The position numbers were made by a program, and so were the translations under genes. Under the pieces are notes generated by a model. The model made no database searches. It had not been told where the DNA came from and worked only from the letters and a program-made list of their open reading frames with translations. A stretch of DNA of 11,791 nucleotides from Pseudomonadota bacterium (GTDB lineage Bacteria; Bdellovibrionota_C; UBA2361; OMIW01): the NCBI GenBank assembly GCA_900299205.1, contig OMIW01000059.1:1-11791 (forward strand), read 5' to 3'. Below, one piece after another: positions 199 to 11,448 of the stretch (position 1 is its first letter; each line of letters opens with the position of its first letter).

Positions 199-1320
199 AT
201 GACTACTGACGCTATCCTCGTTCGCCGCCGCCTCTCGACCGTTGTGCTTGGGTTCTTTGCGGTGCTGCCCCTTTTGGCCTCATTCGTTGAGGTGCAATGG
301 GGTAGCCATTCTTTGATGGCGGTCGTGGAGGGGGGGTGCCCCCTTCTTATCTTCGGGGTTCTGGTGGCGGGGTTGCACTTGGTGACAGGGACCACGGGGG
401 CGCTGCATCTTGGGGTGGCGGGGTTCATGGCGTTGGGTGCATACACGTTCGCTATTCTGGCGAGCCCCGTGTACCCCTTTCAGATTCCGTGGGGGTTGGC
501 GCTCCTCGGTAGTGGAGCGATGGGGGCGTTGTGCGGAGTGTTGCTCGGAATTCCGGTGTTGCGGCTGAGGGGGGATTACTTCGCGATTGTTTCGCTTGGA
601 TTTGGTGAGATTGTCCAGGATGCGCTCCGAAATATGGAGCCGGTCACCAAGGGGACGGTTGGGATCAATCCGATCCCGGGGCCGGTTCTTCTTGAGGAGC
701 TCGTAGGTGGGGAGGGGGCACTTGCATGGCTCGGCAAGGGAGGGTGGTTTTATCTCCTTTTTGCCATTCTCTCGGTGATTGTTGGAGGGGTGGTTGCAAT
801 CGAGAGGACGTCGCTCGGGAGAAGTTGGGCCGCGCTTCGCGATGATGAGCTCGCGGCGCGGTGCATGGGGGTTATGGTGAGCCGAGCGAAGGTGTACGCG
901 ATGATTCTTGGCTCTGCAGTATGTGGGCTTGCGGGCGGATTGTGGGTGAGCTATCTCGGCGCGAGTGGGGAGCCGGGTAATTACGACGTTCAGGTGTCAG
1001 TAATCGTATTGTGCGGGTTGATCCTCGGAGGGATGGGGAATATCTGGGGAGCAGTCGTCGGGGTTTTTATCATGGTTGGTTTTAATTCCCTCGTTCTCAC
1101 CCGAATCACCGAGTTCCTCACCGATTCAGGGTGGGTATCGTCAGGTAGTGTGATCGCGTCGCCTCTCAATTGGAAGTATCTCATCTTTGGCTTGTCGCTG
1201 GTGCTTCTGATGCGGTACCGACCAGAGGGGCTTTTTCCAGCGCATATTCGCCGGACCCCGGAGAGGTTTTTGCCCGATGGTTCTGGGAATGTGGCACGGG
1301 AAGAGAAGGAGCTCATATGA
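199..1320 (+). CDS. livM: LivM-type branched-chain amino acid ABC transporter permease
   Basis: Inner-membrane permease of a high-affinity branched-chain amino acid (or related amide/urea-type) ABC importer. The 373-aa protein is strongly hydrophobic, with about 8-9 candidate membrane segments, and shows the LivM hallmarks: V-TGTTGALHLGVAGFMALGAY (residues 63-82), PVLRLRGDYFAIVSLGFGEI (119-138), the cytoplasmic coupling loop GRSWAALRDDELAARCMGV (207-225), LILGGMGNIWGAVVG (274-288) and a C-terminal MRYRPEGLF (338-346). Length is normal for the family. No clear Shine-Dalgarno sequence precedes the ATG at 199 (the 20 nt upstream are pyrimidine rich), so translation initiation may be weak or the start may differ slightly; no better start was seen. 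It overlaps livG by ATGA, indicating translational coupling. The partner permease LivH and a periplasmic binding protein are not present in the window, so substrate specificity cannot be inferred. The 25-residue C-terminal tail beyond the last membrane segment is hydrophilic. Confidence 0.93.
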   Translation: MTTDAILVRRRLSTVVLGFFAVLPLLASFVEVQWGSHSLMAVVEGGCPLLIFGVLVAGLHLVTGTTGALHLGVAGFMALGAYTFAILASPVYPFQIPWGLALLGSGAMGALCGVLLGIPVLRLRGDYFAIVSLGFGEIVQDALRNMEPVTKGTVGINPIPGPVLLEELVGGEGALAWLGKGGWFYLLFAILSVIVGGVVAIERTSLGRSWAALRDDELAARCMGVMVSRAKVYAMILGSAVCGLAGGLWVSYLGASGEPGNYDVQVSVIVLCGLILGGMGNIWGAVVGVFIMVGFNSLVLTRITEFLTDSGWVSSGSVIASPLNWKYLIFGLSLVLLMRYRPEGLFPAHIRRTPERFLPDGSGNVAREEKELI

Positions 1321-2336
1321 CGGTGCTTACGATAGATCAGATAGCGATGCGATTCGGTGGGGTGATTGCGGTGGATAATGTTTCCCTCGAAGTTCGCGAG
1401 GGGGAGATCCTCTCAGTTATCGGCCCAAATGGTGCCGGAAAGACGACCCTCTTTAACGCAGTCACCGGCGTGTATCGACCGAGTGCGGGAAAGGTCTCGC
1501 TCGAGGGCAGGGAGGTGGCGCATCGATGTGGTGCCCTTGGCATTGTCTACGGGGTGATGGTTGCGGTGCTTACGGGAGCGCTTCTGACGATGCTGGTCCA
1601 CTTGCAGGCAGCATGGGATCACTCGATCAATTCCCTGTATGTGTATGAGGAATCATTCGACTGGGTGCTCTTTTTGAAGGTGCTCGGTGAATACTTCGAT
1701 GAACAATCGTGGTTTGCGACGTGGGGGATCGGAGCTGTAGCGGCGGTCGTTGCGGCGGCAGCGTATGGGGTGATTCGGTATCAGGGGATGATTGTTCCCG
1801 AACGGATCGTTCGGTGCGGGATTGCGCGAACGTTCCAAAATATTCGGCTCTTTCCCTCTATGTCCGTACTCGAGGTTGTTCTCTGCGGAGCTCAGCTCAA
1901 CCGGGTGAGTTCGAGACTGAATGAACGGGCCTTTCGTCGGGGTAAACGGCAGGTTAGGGAAGCGCTTAATCTTCTTGCGATGGTGGGTTTGGCTGATCGA
2001 GCAGAGCAGGGAGCTACCACCCTTTCGTACGGCGATCAACGTCGGCTTGAGATAGCGCGCGCGCTTGCAACACAACCGCGGGTTTTGTTGCTTGATGAAC
2101 CAGCTGCGGGGATGAACGAGGCTGAGAGTGCTCAGCTTGGTGAGTTGGTGCGGCAGATCCGCGATCGTGGTGTCACAATCGTTCTGATTGAACACCATAT
2201 GAGTCTGGTGATGGCGATCAGCGACAGAGTGGTCGTTATGCAAAACGGTCGAATACTCGCGGAGGGTACACCCGCTGAGATTCAGAGTAATGAGGCGGTC
2301 ATCGCTGCGTATTTGGGGAATGATCTGGTTGCCTAG
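1317..2336 (+). CDS. livG: LivG-type ABC transporter ATPase with an inserted membrane hairpin
   Basis: ATP-binding subunit of the Liv importer. The start chosen is the ATG at 1317, which overlaps the livM stop (ATGA) and gives 339 aa beginning MTVLTIDQIAMRFGGV; an in-frame start at 1170 lies inside livM and is rejected. Visible motifs are Walker A GPNGAGKT (36-43), Q-loop GIARTFQNIRLF (168-179, Q174), signature LSYGDQRRL (236-244), Walker B VLLLDEP (256-262), switch histidine in EHHMSLVM (292-299) and the LivG-type C-terminal tail EGTPAEIQSNEAVIAAYLG. All catalytic residues are intact. Family members are usually about 250-260 aa; the excess is one insertion, roughly residues 68-159, placed after the β-strand SLEGREV and before PERIVRCGIARTFQ. 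It contains two strongly hydrophobic stretches (about 71-96 and 134-154) flanking an acidic, aromatic loop. The frame is uninterrupted, so this is not a frameshift. It would tether the ATPase to the membrane (inference). Confidence 0.93.
   Translation: MTVLTIDQIAMRFGGVIAVDNVSLEVREGEILSVIGPNGAGKTTLFNAVTGVYRPSAGKVSLEGREVAHRCGALGIVYGVMVAVLTGALLTMLVHLQAAWDHSINSLYVYEESFDWVLFLKVLGEYFDEQSWFATWGIGAVAAVVAAAAYGVIRYQGMIVPERIVRCGIARTFQNIRLFPSMSVLEVVLCGAQLNRVSSRLNERAFRRGKRQVREALNLLAMVGLADRAEQGATTLSYGDQRRLEIARALATQPRVLLLDEPAAGMNEAESAQLGELVRQIRDRGVTIVLIEHHMSLVMAISDRVVVMQNGRILAEGTPAEIQSNEAVIAAYLGNDLVA
1518..1793 (+). other. Segment encoding the two-helix membrane insertion in LivG
   Basis: This in-frame segment encodes LivG residues of about 68-159. 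Two hydrophobic runs, IVYGVMVAVLTGALLTMLV (76-94) and WGIGAVAAVVAAAAYGVI (136-153), are each long enough to cross a membrane. Between them lie about 38 residues rich in D, E, Y, F and W, which would face the periplasm if both ends of the hairpin are cytoplasmic. Boundaries are approximate and rest on comparison with remembered LivG sequences, in which the strand after Walker A joins the Q-loop region through only a short linker. Confidence 0.7.
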
Positions 2337-2386: not shown

Positions 2387-3130
2387 ATGTCTGCGGAAAC
2401 ATCTCAGCTCCAGCAGTCGGGGAAAGGACTTTCGCTCAGCGGGGTTACCGCAGGATACGGTGGTATCACCGCTCTGCATGAGGTTTCGCTCGAGGTGGGG
2501 GTAGGCGAGTTTGTTGCGGTTGTTGGGGCTAATGGAGCAGGTAAGACGACTCTTCTGAAGGTTGCGGCGGGGCTTCATGCGGCGTGGCCAGGAGATATTA
2601 TTTTGGGAGGGGAAGTGGTAACCGCGCGGTCTGCCTCGGACCGTGCGAACAGTGGGCTCGGTCTGGTCCCTGAGGGAAGAAGGGTCTTTCCGCGAATGTC
2701 GGTTCGTGAAAACCTTCTCGTTGGAGCTCACCATCGGCGAGATAAGGCGGGTATTGAGTCGGATCTGGGGGCAATGCACGATCTTTTTCCTATTCTCGCT
2801 GAACGGCGGAGTCAGGCTGCGGGTACTCTTTCAGGAGGTGAACAACAGATGCTTGCGATTGCGCGGGCTCTGATGGGACGACCTCAAGTATTGCTCCTCG
2901 ATGAGCCATCAATGGGGGTTGCGCCGCTTCTGGTGCGGGCGATATTTGGGGCGATAGCGCAGCTCCATCGCGAGGGCTTGACGGTGCTTGTTGTTGAGCA
3001 AAACGCGAGACTCGCTCTCACGACGGCCTCGCGTGGGTACGTTATTGAATCGGGTCGGGTCGTTCTCGAGGGAGGTGCGAGCGCACTGCTCAATGATTCG
3101 CAGGTTCAGCGGGCTTATCTCGGTATGTAA
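2387..3130 (+). CDS. livF: LivF-type ABC transporter ATPase
   Basis: Second ATP-binding subunit of the Liv importer, 247 aa, normal size. Motifs are Walker A GANGAGKT (47-54), the LivF-specific Q-loop region LGLVPEGRRVFPRMSVRENL (91-110), signature LSGGEQQMLAIARAL (148-162), Walker B VLLLDEPSMGVAP (168-180) and VVEQNARLAL (202-211), where the position usually filled by the switch histidine has the EQN form typical of LivF. The ATG at 2387 is preceded by a good ribosome-binding site, GAGAGGA at 2374-2380. It starts 50 nt after livG, in the same direction, so livM-livG-livF is almost certainly one operon. It lacks the membrane insertion seen in LivG. A 15-residue polar N-terminal extension precedes the first β-strand LSLSGVTAGYGG. 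Confidence 0.95.
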   Translation: MSAETSQLQQSGKGLSLSGVTAGYGGITALHEVSLEVGVGEFVAVVGANGAGKTTLLKVAAGLHAAWPGDIILGGEVVTARSASDRANSGLGLVPEGRRVFPRMSVRENLLVGAHHRRDKAGIESDLGAMHDLFPILAERRSQAAGTLSGGEQQMLAIARALMGRPQVLLLDEPSMGVAPLLVRAIFGAIAQLHREGLTVLVVEQNARLALTTASRGYVIESGRVVLEGGASALLNDSQVQRAYLGM

Positions 3131-8320: not shown

Positions 8321-8923
8321 TTGCGAGCTTTGGACGCCGTGACGGCGGAGAGAGATTGGAGCGGTTGTGTAGCAGGGGAGAGGATGACGGTAAACGCTCA
8401 TACATACCGCTCCAATACGAGCGAGGAACGAGGAAAAGATCTCGAGGACAGAATCTCTATACGAACGGCGTTTGTGGCACGATTTATTGTTTTGCGAGAG
8501 GGAAAGCGTTCGAAAGCACATCGAAAAATCGAACATATGGGGTGGCATGAACTGACCTCTGCCCGTGACCTGGCATTGGCCTTCAAGATACTATTCGCCG
8601 AAAATGGCGATCGTGAGGAGCCGGTAGACCGAGATCTCCGTCGCGCTCTCGGCCATGCAGAGAGGTCGGCCAGATTTTTCAAAGGAGAGTATGCAAAACG
8701 AGCTACCCTGTCATTCTCTGAGGCGCTTGTTGATTATGAACGTTCGAATATGCTGTTGTTCGGCACACCTGTTGGGGGTCGTCCCGGAGGATGGCGACCA
8801 GCGCAAGAGGTCGCCCGGGAGAGTACGGTAGTTATGGTCCCCGAGGTGCTCGCATCCACTGGGTCATCTTTGGTTACCATCGCTGGGATTGACGGTGGTC
8901 TTGATGATGAGGAGGATGACTGA
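8321..8923 (+). CDS. Unrecognised 200-aa protein with acidic C-terminus
   Basis: I do not recognise this protein. With the TTG start at 8321 it has 200 aa; starting at the ATG at 8384 it has 179 aa beginning MTVNAHTYRSNTSEERG. It is hydrophilic and charged, with no membrane segment or signal peptide. A probably helical region spans about 36-140 (for example LTSARDLALAFKILFAENG at 78-96 and RRALGHAERSARFFKGEYAKR at 107-127), followed by a Gly/Pro-rich turn GGRPGGWRP (152-160), a hydrophobic β-like stretch STVVMVPEVLASTGSSLVTIAGI (168-190) and the terminal DDEEDD. The gene lies 70 nt upstream of the FlhB-like gene in the same direction, so the two are likely co-transcribed. In other bacteria the stand-alone FlhB-domain gene often follows a FliK-like gene, but no hook-length-control domain is visible here. 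Coding status rests on the intact frame, ribosome-binding site and spacing. Confidence 0.65.
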   Translation: MRALDAVTAERDWSGCVAGERMTVNAHTYRSNTSEERGKDLEDRISIRTAFVARFIVLREGKRSKAHRKIEHMGWHELTSARDLALAFKILFAENGDREEPVDRDLRRALGHAERSARFFKGEYAKRATLSFSEALVDYERSNMLLFGTPVGGRPGGWRPAQEVARESTVVMVPEVLASTGSSLVTIAGIDGGLDDEEDD

Positions 8924-8993
8924 GATTGACCGCCCTCGAAGCACCCCTTCGGTGAGATCAGGCATCTTGAGGTAGAATGGGGAGGGTGCCGTG

Positions 8994-9278
8994 ATGAATC
9001 CAAGCGAGAAAAAATCGGTCGCTCTTCGGTACGGTCAACGGGATTGTACGCCTTGCTCTACGTCCGTGGGAGACGGATATCTTGCAAAGCGTATTGAGGG
9101 GATAGCCCAAGAACGAGGCTTGCCCATTGAAAAGGAATCTCTCCTCACCGATCTGTTAGCAATTCTCGATGCGGAGTCTGCGATACCGAAGGACGCCCAC
9201 TGCCTTACATCGAAGCTTATTACCTTCCTGTGGCGAGCCGATCAGAATCTTAAAAAAGGGACGGAAGCGAGTAATTAG
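8994..9278 (+). CDS. Stand-alone FlhB C-terminal-domain (FhlB/YlqH-like) protein
   Basis: Small cytoplasmic protein (94 aa) matching the C-terminal domain of FlhB/YscU/HrcU, the substrate-specificity switch of flagellar and type III export. It begins MNPSEKKSVALRY, which lines up with the N-PTH cleavage site and following VALxY strand of FlhB, and continues with DGYLAKRIEGIAQERGLPIE (the FlhB block 'aerIreiA.e.gvPive'), then SLLTDLLAILDAESAIPKDA (matching 'plaraLy..velg.eIPeel') and a final helix TSKLITFLWRADQ. No membrane domain is present. Such single-domain paralogues are known, for example YlqH in Bacillus subtilis. The ribosome-binding site GGAGG at 8981-8985 is 8 nt from the ATG at 8994; GTG at 8991 is an alternative one codon earlier. 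Two cysteines in DCTPCSTS (residues 17-24) are unusual. The presence of a flagellar or export system elsewhere in the genome is inferred. Confidence 0.8.
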   Translation: MNPSEKKSVALRYGQRDCTPCSTSVGDGYLAKRIEGIAQERGLPIEKESLLTDLLAILDAESAIPKDAHCLTSKLITFLWRADQNLKKGTEASN

Positions 9279-9440: not shown

Positions 9441-10430
9441 TCAGGGCTGATCGCCATCACGGAACCGTTGCACTGAACCTTTGAGGATATCCTCAATCGG
9501 AGTGCTGAGGGGTATAGTGAGGATGTCCTCCGAAAACACATCATGGAGATGATCGGTAACTTCGGCCGAGACTCCAGCTCTCATGAGCGAGGAGAGAATG
9601 ATGTGGCGATGGACTCCATAGGTGTCCCTGATAGCATCCGTAAAAAGGGGATGGAATGTCTCAAAGAGCTCATCGCGAAGGAAAGATTCGTCGATTGCGT
9701 CTTCGGGGTAAACCACCGCGAGAAAATGGCGACTGGTCTCAGTGGTTTCATCGATCAAGCCCTCAAAAAAGGTCTGGAGACGCCGATGGGCGTCCACTAC
9801 CTCGGCGAGGGTCAGAACTGCAGATGAGGTTAGACTATCGCGAAGGACGGTAGTGTGATTTCTGCGCATCTCAGAGGTCAGCCGAGGATCCTGACCAATG
9901 AAATCGCATCGGAGTATTATCCCCTCAGCCATTTCAGCGTGGCTCGCAAGCAATGATTGCCTCATTCTGACATCTGCTGCGGAGATTGCGGAGTCGATGA
10001 TATTCTTTCCCACGAGGCTGACGGCGTGGCTCGTTAAGTGTCCTACCAGAAGAGCCTTCTCTCGGGTGAAGTGGGGAGCTCGACCCGTATCCTGGTCTGA
10101 AAATGCCTCAGTCACGAGAGTGACGAGCGTCTTAAATCTGTCGAGAAGGTCTGTGTAGTAGGTATCTTCTGAAGCCTGAAGGTAGGTAGTCATCGTCTTC
10201 AGTGAAGGTATCCGCCCAAGAGAGCCACGGATCACATCATCGTCGTCATGGGACGCGGTCATTGCATGAATTTCATCTCGAGCAATCGTCGCGGCCGCCG
10301 ACAATCGGTTTGTCTCAAAAAGGGGTGCCGCGAGTTCTCGTGATAATACATCAGCCCAATGGTGCGGTTCCCCCCCGTTATGATTGAAGTTCGACCCTGA
10401 ATGGGCTGCTCCGTTTCCTGGCGATGTCAT
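9441..10430 (-). CDS. Unrecognised helical protein, paralogue B of a tandem pair
   Basis: I do not recognise this 329-aa protein. It has a polar, Gly/Asn/His-rich N-terminus (about 1-25), then largely helical sequence with no membrane segment or signal peptide. It is a diverged paralogue of the product of the gene just upstream: RELAAPLF---R--A (31-45) matches RELQAPAF---R--A there; IPSLKTMTTYLQAS (74-87) matches FPPLKQLSEYMHST; and H-x(11)-SAIS (135-150) and the DPRL/DPLL and FFEGLIDET/LDFLEET segments also align. An acidic patch, HDDDD, is at 61-65. The ATG at 10430 is preceded by AAGGAG at a 4-5 nt spacing. It is the second gene of a - strand pair, 58 nt after the first, and its 3' end converges with the FlhB-like gene across 162 nt that show no clear terminator hairpin. 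Function is unknown. Confidence 0.8.
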   Translation of the reverse strand: MTSPGNGAAHSGSNFNHNGGEPHHWADVLSRELAAPLFETNRLSAAATIARDEIHAMTASHDDDDVIRGSLGRIPSLKTMTTYLQASEDTYYTDLLDRFKTLVTLVTEAFSDQDTGRAPHFTREKALLVGHLTSHAVSLVGKNIIDSAISAADVRMRQSLLASHAEMAEGIILRCDFIGQDPRLTSEMRRNHTTVLRDSLTSSAVLTLAEVVDAHRRLQTFFEGLIDETTETSRHFLAVVYPEDAIDESFLRDELFETFHPLFTDAIRDTYGVHRHIILSSLMRAGVSAEVTDHLHDVFSEDILTIPLSTPIEDILKGSVQRFRDGDQP

Positions 10431-10488: not shown

Positions 10489-11448
10489 TCAACCGTCGTG
10501 CGTAGACTTCTGCTCACCCTCTTTGGTGCCGCCAAAGTCTCGCCGGGGCGGAAGTCGAGGACGGGGGGGAAGGACGTCTTCTAGTCGCCTGAGAGCACCA
10601 TTGATCACTTCCTGATGATTTTTATGATACACGAGAGCTGCCTGCTCGACTCCTTTTTGGAATTGCTTGGACAGTGCTGAGCTCAACATCTTTCTGAGAT
10701 TGGGGGTAATCTCGACGGGTGGCAAGATAGTTTCTTCAAGGAAGTCTAGGGCGTGATTGATCGATATCATTCCGGCGAGAAGATGACCCTCATTCCATTT
10801 ATCGGCCGTAAAAAGGGCATCACGAGCGTTCCGTGATTGAACAGAGAACTGTTCCCGGGCGAGCTGCCTAAATGATCCTGGTGACAGGAGAGGATCTTTT
10901 CGGAGTGAGCCGATATCGTTCTCACTTTCAGCGATAGAGCGGAGAAAGGGGTCGATCACTGAGGCCACAAAAACATCATGAGCATACTTGAGGTCTCGGG
11001 AGATAGCAGAGCCACACACCGCTGATGCGGTATGTCGAATGAGAAAGGTGAGAAGTCCGTTCTGAGCTAACTCAGCGATATCGGTTTCTCCTAATTTTGC
11101 GCCTACCTCTTGGATAATCTCTTGAGATGCAGCAAAGAAGCGCCGCTGCATCTCTTGCATATCATCCTGCGGGGTTGAGTGCATATACTCTGAGAGCTGT
11201 TTCAGAGGGGGAAATGAGGAGCCAATAACTTTTGTAAAGTGGTCAACCCCCTGTTCCTCTATTTCACTGACGAGTGCTGACACTGATGCGAGCATCCGTG
11301 CATCGAGAAACGCCGGTGCCTGTAATTCACGCGCAAAGGAATCGCCCGAGGAGAGGGATGATTCGGATGGATTTTCACCACCCTCAGCGGGGTTATTTTT
11401 ATGATCATCTCGAGAATGATCGGGGGTGTTTCCCTGGTGCTGGGCCAT
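10489..11448 (-). CDS. Unrecognised helical protein, paralogue A of a tandem pair
   Basis: I do not recognise this 319-aa protein. Residues 1-37 are low-complexity and polar (rich in H, N, D, E, S and G), residues of about 38-295 are mostly helical with modest hydrophobicity and no membrane helix, and the tail is Pro/Arg-rich (LPPRPRLPPRRDFGG, 293-307) followed by charged residues. Conserved with paralogue B are RELQAPAF (40-47), FPPLKQLSEYMHST (79-92), a helix ending in SAIS (147-150) and NHALDFLEETILPP (231-244). A single Cys occurs (C145). The ATG at 11448 has a ribosome-binding site AGGA about 7 nt upstream. It is the first gene of the pair and is transcribed divergently from the methyltransferase gene, so its promoter must lie in 11449-11663, where two inverted repeats are found. 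No enzyme motif, DNA-binding helix-turn-helix or TPR signature was identified. Confidence 0.8.
   Translation of the reverse strand: MAQHQGNTPDHSRDDHKNNPAEGGENPSESSLSSGDSFARELQAPAFLDARMLASVSALVSEIEEQGVDHFTKVIGSSFPPLKQLSEYMHSTPQDDMQEMQRRFFAASQEIIQEVGAKLGETDIAELAQNGLLTFLIRHTASAVCGSAISRDLKYAHDVFVASVIDPFLRSIAESENDIGSLRKDPLLSPGSFRQLAREQFSVQSRNARDALFTADKWNEGHLLAGMISINHALDFLEETILPPVEITPNLRKMLSSALSKQFQKGVEQAALVYHKNHQEVINGALRRLEDVLPPRPRLPPRRDFGGTKEGEQKSTHDG

Follow-up and report, generated by a model that had tools for sequence, protein, structure and literature searches.

The window, that is, the whole stretch of 11,791 nucleotides of contig OMIW01000059.1 that was analysed, encodes a LivG protein whose ABC ATPase fold is interrupted by an insert that very probably forms a membrane hairpin. 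ATPase subunits of ABC importers are usually treated as soluble, peripheral proteins. The insert, its constant length and conservation, the operon and the single clade of its carriers are all read from sequence; we further infer that the hairpin packs on the permease and that its loop makes contacts there. This LivG would then be the integral membrane ATPase of a LivK-LivHM-LivGF amino-acid importer, with the hairpin on the permease and the loop at the periplasmic face, a reading that we consider somewhat probable.

The LivG protein of the window

The livG gene (1317..2336, + strand, like all features of the operon given below) is one open frame of 339 aa. The preliminary description had reported an intact ABC ATPase, and all motifs were indeed found: Walker A GPNGAGKT (aa 36-43; 1422..1445), the Q-loop glutamine Q174 (1836..1838), the ABC signature LSYGDQRRL (aa 236-244; 2022..2048), Walker B VLLLDE (aa 256-261; 2082..2099) and the switch histidine H293 (2193..2195). 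The C-terminal branched-chain amino acid ATPase motif BCA_ABC_TP_C (PF12399; aa 312-336; 2250..2324) scored 47.5 bits in Pfam against a cut-off of 25.5. The NCBIfam LivG profile NF008449 (length 255) matched with 268 bits, below its cut-off of 362, and the insert split the match in two, the second stretch aligning LivG residues 162-335 with profile positions 75-254. The two stretches indicate about 87-89 extra residues between Walker A and the Q-loop, which agrees with the roughly 90 first noted at about residues 68-159. This insert (aa 68-159; 1518..1793) is missing in ordinary LivG, and extends the distance from Walker A to the Q-loop to 135 aa, compared to 46-52 aa in the ordinary LivG of the same phyla. 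The absence of an insert from the paired ATPase LivF (2387..3130), also noted before, was borne out by both Pfam and NCBIfam, with Pfam ABC_tran unbroken over residues 30-175. Taken together, the window protein is a LivG by its motifs, core fold and operon. It departs from the described family twice, namely by scoring below the NCBIfam cut-off and by being predicted as a protein of 339 aa with two membrane helices, compared to a soluble one of about 255 aa.

A predicted membrane hairpin with a conserved loop

The insert can be divided into a predicted TM helix 1 (aa 73-97, hydrophobic core 76-94; 1533..1607), a putatively periplasmic loop with the family motif W..(I)..(N)YVY(QQP)F(P)W (aa 98-117; 1608..1667), a short helix between the loop and TM2 in the AlphaFold model (aa 116-129; 1662..1703), and a predicted TM helix 2 (aa 132-157; 1710..1787). 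The two membrane-helix-like runs of the preliminary description thus reappear in hydropathy plots and in two AlphaFold models. Kyte-Doolittle peaks of the window LivG are 2.35 for TM1 (76-94) and 1.81 for TM2 (135-153), with 1.39 as the maximum for the remainder of the protein; maxima of insert-less LivGs range from 0.93 to 1.71. Over the whole two-helix set, TM1 peaks at 1.5-2.8, TM2 at 1.2-2.0 and the rest of the proteins at about 0.9-1.7. The hydrophobicity of TM2 is moderate in many members, and octanol sums are unfavourable in some. AlphaFold placed helices at residues 73-107, 116-129 and 132-157 of the window LivG (pLDDT 79.4), and at 73-94, 96-105, 116-129 and 132-157 of a Hydrogenedentota homologue (L022; pLDDT 83.2); a turn precedes the short helix 116-129 in both models. 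Computed from nine input sequences (pTM 0.71), these models inform on helices, not on packing. The loop carries 0-3 K/R in most members (six in L028) and the flanks carry more, as expected of a hairpin with both ends on the cytoplasmic side, and such a pair of TM helices is what we predict.

Among nine aligned proteins, mean pairwise identity is 50% in the loop (98-117), 23% in TM1, 30% in TM2 and 59% in the core, so that no other part of the insert is as well conserved in sequence as the loop. W100 (97%), Y108 (81%), F114 (100%) and W116 (94%) are kept over 36 two-helix sequences. TM2 of the family has a GxxxG motif (glycines 94% and 97%), followed by W (94%), R158 (97%) and P161 (94%). At these five positions the window copy has A, A, R, M and P and is therefore a divergent member: it shares W100, F114, W116 and the Walker A-Q-loop distance of 135 aa with the two-helix clade, and has AxxxA in place of GxxxG. 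The loop had been described as acidic and aromatic. Its aromatic character, together with proline, is conserved, but its acidity belongs to the window copy (seven D/E in 40 aa vs one to six in the other members) and is not a family trait. Comparison of the insert with Pfam and with PDB sequences gave no convincing known family or solved sequence. Foldseek and VIA-align searches with the LivG model returned matches to the ATPase core; the hairpin alone may still have a known fold.

Occurrence in other genomes

We searched for related proteins with an insert-only profile, built from three and later nine sequences; our in-depth survey covered three phyla. Of 45 genomes in the candidate phylum to which the window belongs, four had the insert, and three of these four represent different families within the order of the window. 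Eight records came from scanning GTDB species genomes and bore the labels Oligoflexia/Deltaproteobacteria, Planctomycetota (Phycisphaerales and others) and Hydrogenedentota. Further hits came from sampled Planctomycetota (13 of 392), from the class of one insert-carrying planctomycete (16 of 397) and from Hydrogenedentota (6 of 68). These counts are sequences, not independent species, and the genome sets overlap in part. Overall, 38 distinct LivG sequences from three phyla have a membrane-type insert at this site. Their Walker A-Q-loop distance is 128-136 aa in 36 cases (135 aa in 26), 186 aa in one and 372 aa in one. No viral contig with the insert was found when we looked for such contigs.

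The presence of the same insert in at least 36 related LivG proteins of three phyla identifies it as a real variant and not a sequencing error, and its recurrence in dozens of other assemblies disposes of the assembly insertion that had been named as a possible refutation. It had also been anticipated that an insert shared by many LivG proteins would be real but not new. Dozens do share it, but we found no description of such LivG proteins in the searched open-access literature, of which our coverage was partial. The two-helix LivG is thus a real variant that is undescribed in the literature searched.

Phylogeny of the insert-carrying proteins

As proposed beforehand, the homologues were placed on a tree (57 LivG proteins, insert columns left out), and the two-helix proteins formed one clade. 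A single branch (86/84; recovered in 84% of the bootstrap trees) separates the 26 two-helix LivGs, including the 372-aa type, from all others; for LivG alone, this support is moderate. LivH and LivM of two-helix operons are each monophyletic, with SH-aLRT values of 100 and 99. Since no insert-less member lies inside these LivH and LivM clades, loss of the hairpin is not seen in our sample. Each of the three phyla has few carriers, which suggests that the whole liv operon may have been passed between phyla by transfer.

Three LivG proteins are altered in other ways at the same site. A Planctomycetota protein (L091 3327-5693, G089:C120; the 186-aa type) carries roughly 140 unrelated residues there, with four hydrophobic peaks, probably four helices. 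A single origin that includes L091 was rejected (AU test, p = 0.0017 against joining it to the two-helix clade), and its insert is independent of that clade. This site has thus probably acquired membrane segments on at least two occasions, each time in even number, which suggests that it faces the membrane and tolerates additions. Another Planctomycetota LivG, of 581 aa (L037 1306-3048, G332:C639), is enlarged within the hairpin loop by about 240 residues with a high share of charged ones. This stretch gave no Pfam match over the cut-off and would give an ABC ATPase a domain on the periplasmic side. L103 is the same gene; its position on the trees is uncertain. A third LivG (L089 4896-5858, G113:C16) carries a soluble 28-aa insert in which RLPEGQEA occurs twice as a repeat.

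Partner subunits and operon

The preliminary description had raised the possibility that the hairpin replaces contacts of a missing subunit. The window encodes LivM (199..1320) and LivF, and the same genome has LivK, which matches Peripla_BP_6, and LivH at the end of contig C165 (L162 3776-5035 and 5094-6035). LivH and LivM are exactly the two PF02653 permease genes of this genome, and where sufficient sequence is available, almost all related operons have the order LivH-LivM-LivG-LivF. With both permease genes, LivK and LivF present, the missing-subunit idea is excluded for the window genome. Its liv operon is divided between two contigs, and livM is preceded in the window by 198 nucleotides (1-198) without livH. 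About 315 bases follow LivK-LivH on the other contig (L162 6038-6350), including a frame that resembles the end of a transposase/Rpn-type protein; possibly a mobile element lies between livH and livM.

The permease subunits of the two-helix clade have longer loops. The LivH segment between anchors measures 57-59 aa, compared to 44-54 aa in compact insert-less LivH, with about 12 extra residues in the sequence GGLPMxVFxGGxAAAAPKDFPAL, and the LivH of the window genome has the same loop. The last LivM loop is mostly 50-56 aa in the clade and mostly 33-44 aa in insert-less operons, with 10-14 extra residues ending in SPNNWKY (SVIASPLNWKY in the window LivM, as identified by Pfam and loop comparison). 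Given the usual LivH/LivM topology with the coupling helix inside, we take these additions to be periplasmic. In the L103 operon, where the LivG loop is about 240 aa longer, LivH is without the 12 residues and LivM is short. The absence of these residues beside a remodelled LivG loop is suggestive of a LivG-permease contact, although as a sequence pattern from a single case. The LivH and LivM differences as such were inherited with the whole operon clade and are therefore not independent evidence of contact. LivH periplasmic loops of 88-180 aa between anchors are common in insert-less planctomycete operons, and these expansions are independent of LivG inserts (L126, L127, L128, L129, L141, L147 and others). 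We had considered that LivG inserts covary with giant LivH loops, as in L091 (about 110 aa or more), but rejected this because the control set had such loops without an insert.

Other genes of the window were noted in passing. On the - strand, neighbouring genes (9441-10430 and 10489-11448) encode proteins of 329 and 319 aa. Their N-termini are weakly alike (28% over 71 aa, E 6e-4), and neither protein matched Pfam or NCBIfam. A 95-aa protein (8991-9278, +) resembles the C-terminal part of FlhB only (PF01312, just below the cut-off) and adjoins a 200-aa frame at 8321-8923.

A model for the hairpin and its alternatives

In the model that we propose, the hairpin would emerge from the ATPase fold behind the strand that comes before the Q-loop segment and then cross the membrane. 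The aromatic loop would form on the periplasmic side, and the chain would return through the glycine- or alanine-rich second helix. A short R-x-x-P link, which is conserved in the family, would connect this helix to the Q-loop region. Packed on LivM and/or LivH, the hairpin would enlarge the permease bundle by two helices and keep LivG on it permanently, and its loop would probably meet the residues by which the periplasmic loops of LivH and LivM are extended. The long LivH loops of insert-less operons count against this last argument for loop contacts.

The preliminary description had also suggested that the ATPase binds the permease differently or senses something outside the membrane; both ideas would fit the conserved loop and the clade-specific periplasmic loops of LivH and LivM. 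The hairpin could also do more than pack. Its loop could sense LivK docking or the permease gate and move the Q-loop via a short rigid link after TM2, in addition to the route through the coupling helices. The higher conservation of the loop relative to the helices would fit such a role, as would the clade-specific LivH and LivM loops, the L103 operon and the residues R158 and P161, which join TM2 to the Q-loop segment 13 residues past the conserved proline. But loop conservation could serve packing or folding alone, the contrast with L103 comes from one operon of uncertain tree position, and the window copy has M, not R, at position 158. We regard such signalling as possible though not likely. 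In a fuller version, which is doubtful, the hairpin would act as a line across the membrane that connects the periplasmic face (LivK docking or the permease gate) with the Q-loop of one ATPase, and one of the two ATP sites would thereby come under direct control from outside, in addition to the coupling helices. At the other extreme, the hairpin could be a passive tether that keeps LivG at the membrane and increases the efficiency of assembly without any permease-specific contact. This would suit helices that are kept mainly as hydrophobic, as the low identity of TM1 indicates, and the independent, probably four-helix insert of L091 means that unrelated membrane segments occur at this site. 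A tether leaves the conserved loop and the constant insert length across three phyla unexplained, however, and we consider it unlikely. It is more improbable still that the insert is hydrophobic without spanning the membrane, either as a helical pair lying on it or by providing cytoplasmic LivG-LivF contacts. TM2 is weakly hydrophobic in several members, but both AlphaFold models have two helices of membrane length, TM1 peaks reach 2.8, W and R end TM2, and the loop is mostly poor in K/R. An assembly or annotation artefact is practically negligible: the window comes from a draft assembly of 206 contigs, but dozens of other assemblies have the same insert with constant length and conserved residues, and its GC content equals that of the livG core (0.552 and 0.557).

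With one membrane-embedded ATPase out of two, as predicted, the two-helix clade would be a natural system for studying how docking of the periplasmic substrate protein reaches the ATP sites. It also poses the question why LivG, and not LivF, was altered.

Comparison with known systems

The window protein is like ordinary LivG in having all ATPase motifs, the PF12399 motif and a LivK-H-M-G-F operon. Its model superimposes on MJ1267 (PDB 1GAJ; also 1G6H) over the ATPase core, with a Z score of 29.3 for 234 residues at 2.1 A. Unlike ordinary LivG, it has a predicted membrane hairpin of about 89 residues between Walker A and the Q-loop. An ATPase that is physically part of a membrane-embedded chain is also found in ABC exporters with fused domains. 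There, the pore-forming membrane domain stands before or after the whole ATPase, whereas the fold of the window LivG is interrupted by two helices and its permease is a separate protein. ABC ATPase folds broken by an insert are known from ABC-F proteins, with their arm domain, and from Rad50/SMC proteins, with their coiled coil. Those inserts are soluble and act on the ribosome or on DNA, and compared to these general descriptions, the insert of the window LivG differs both in its nature and in its probable function.
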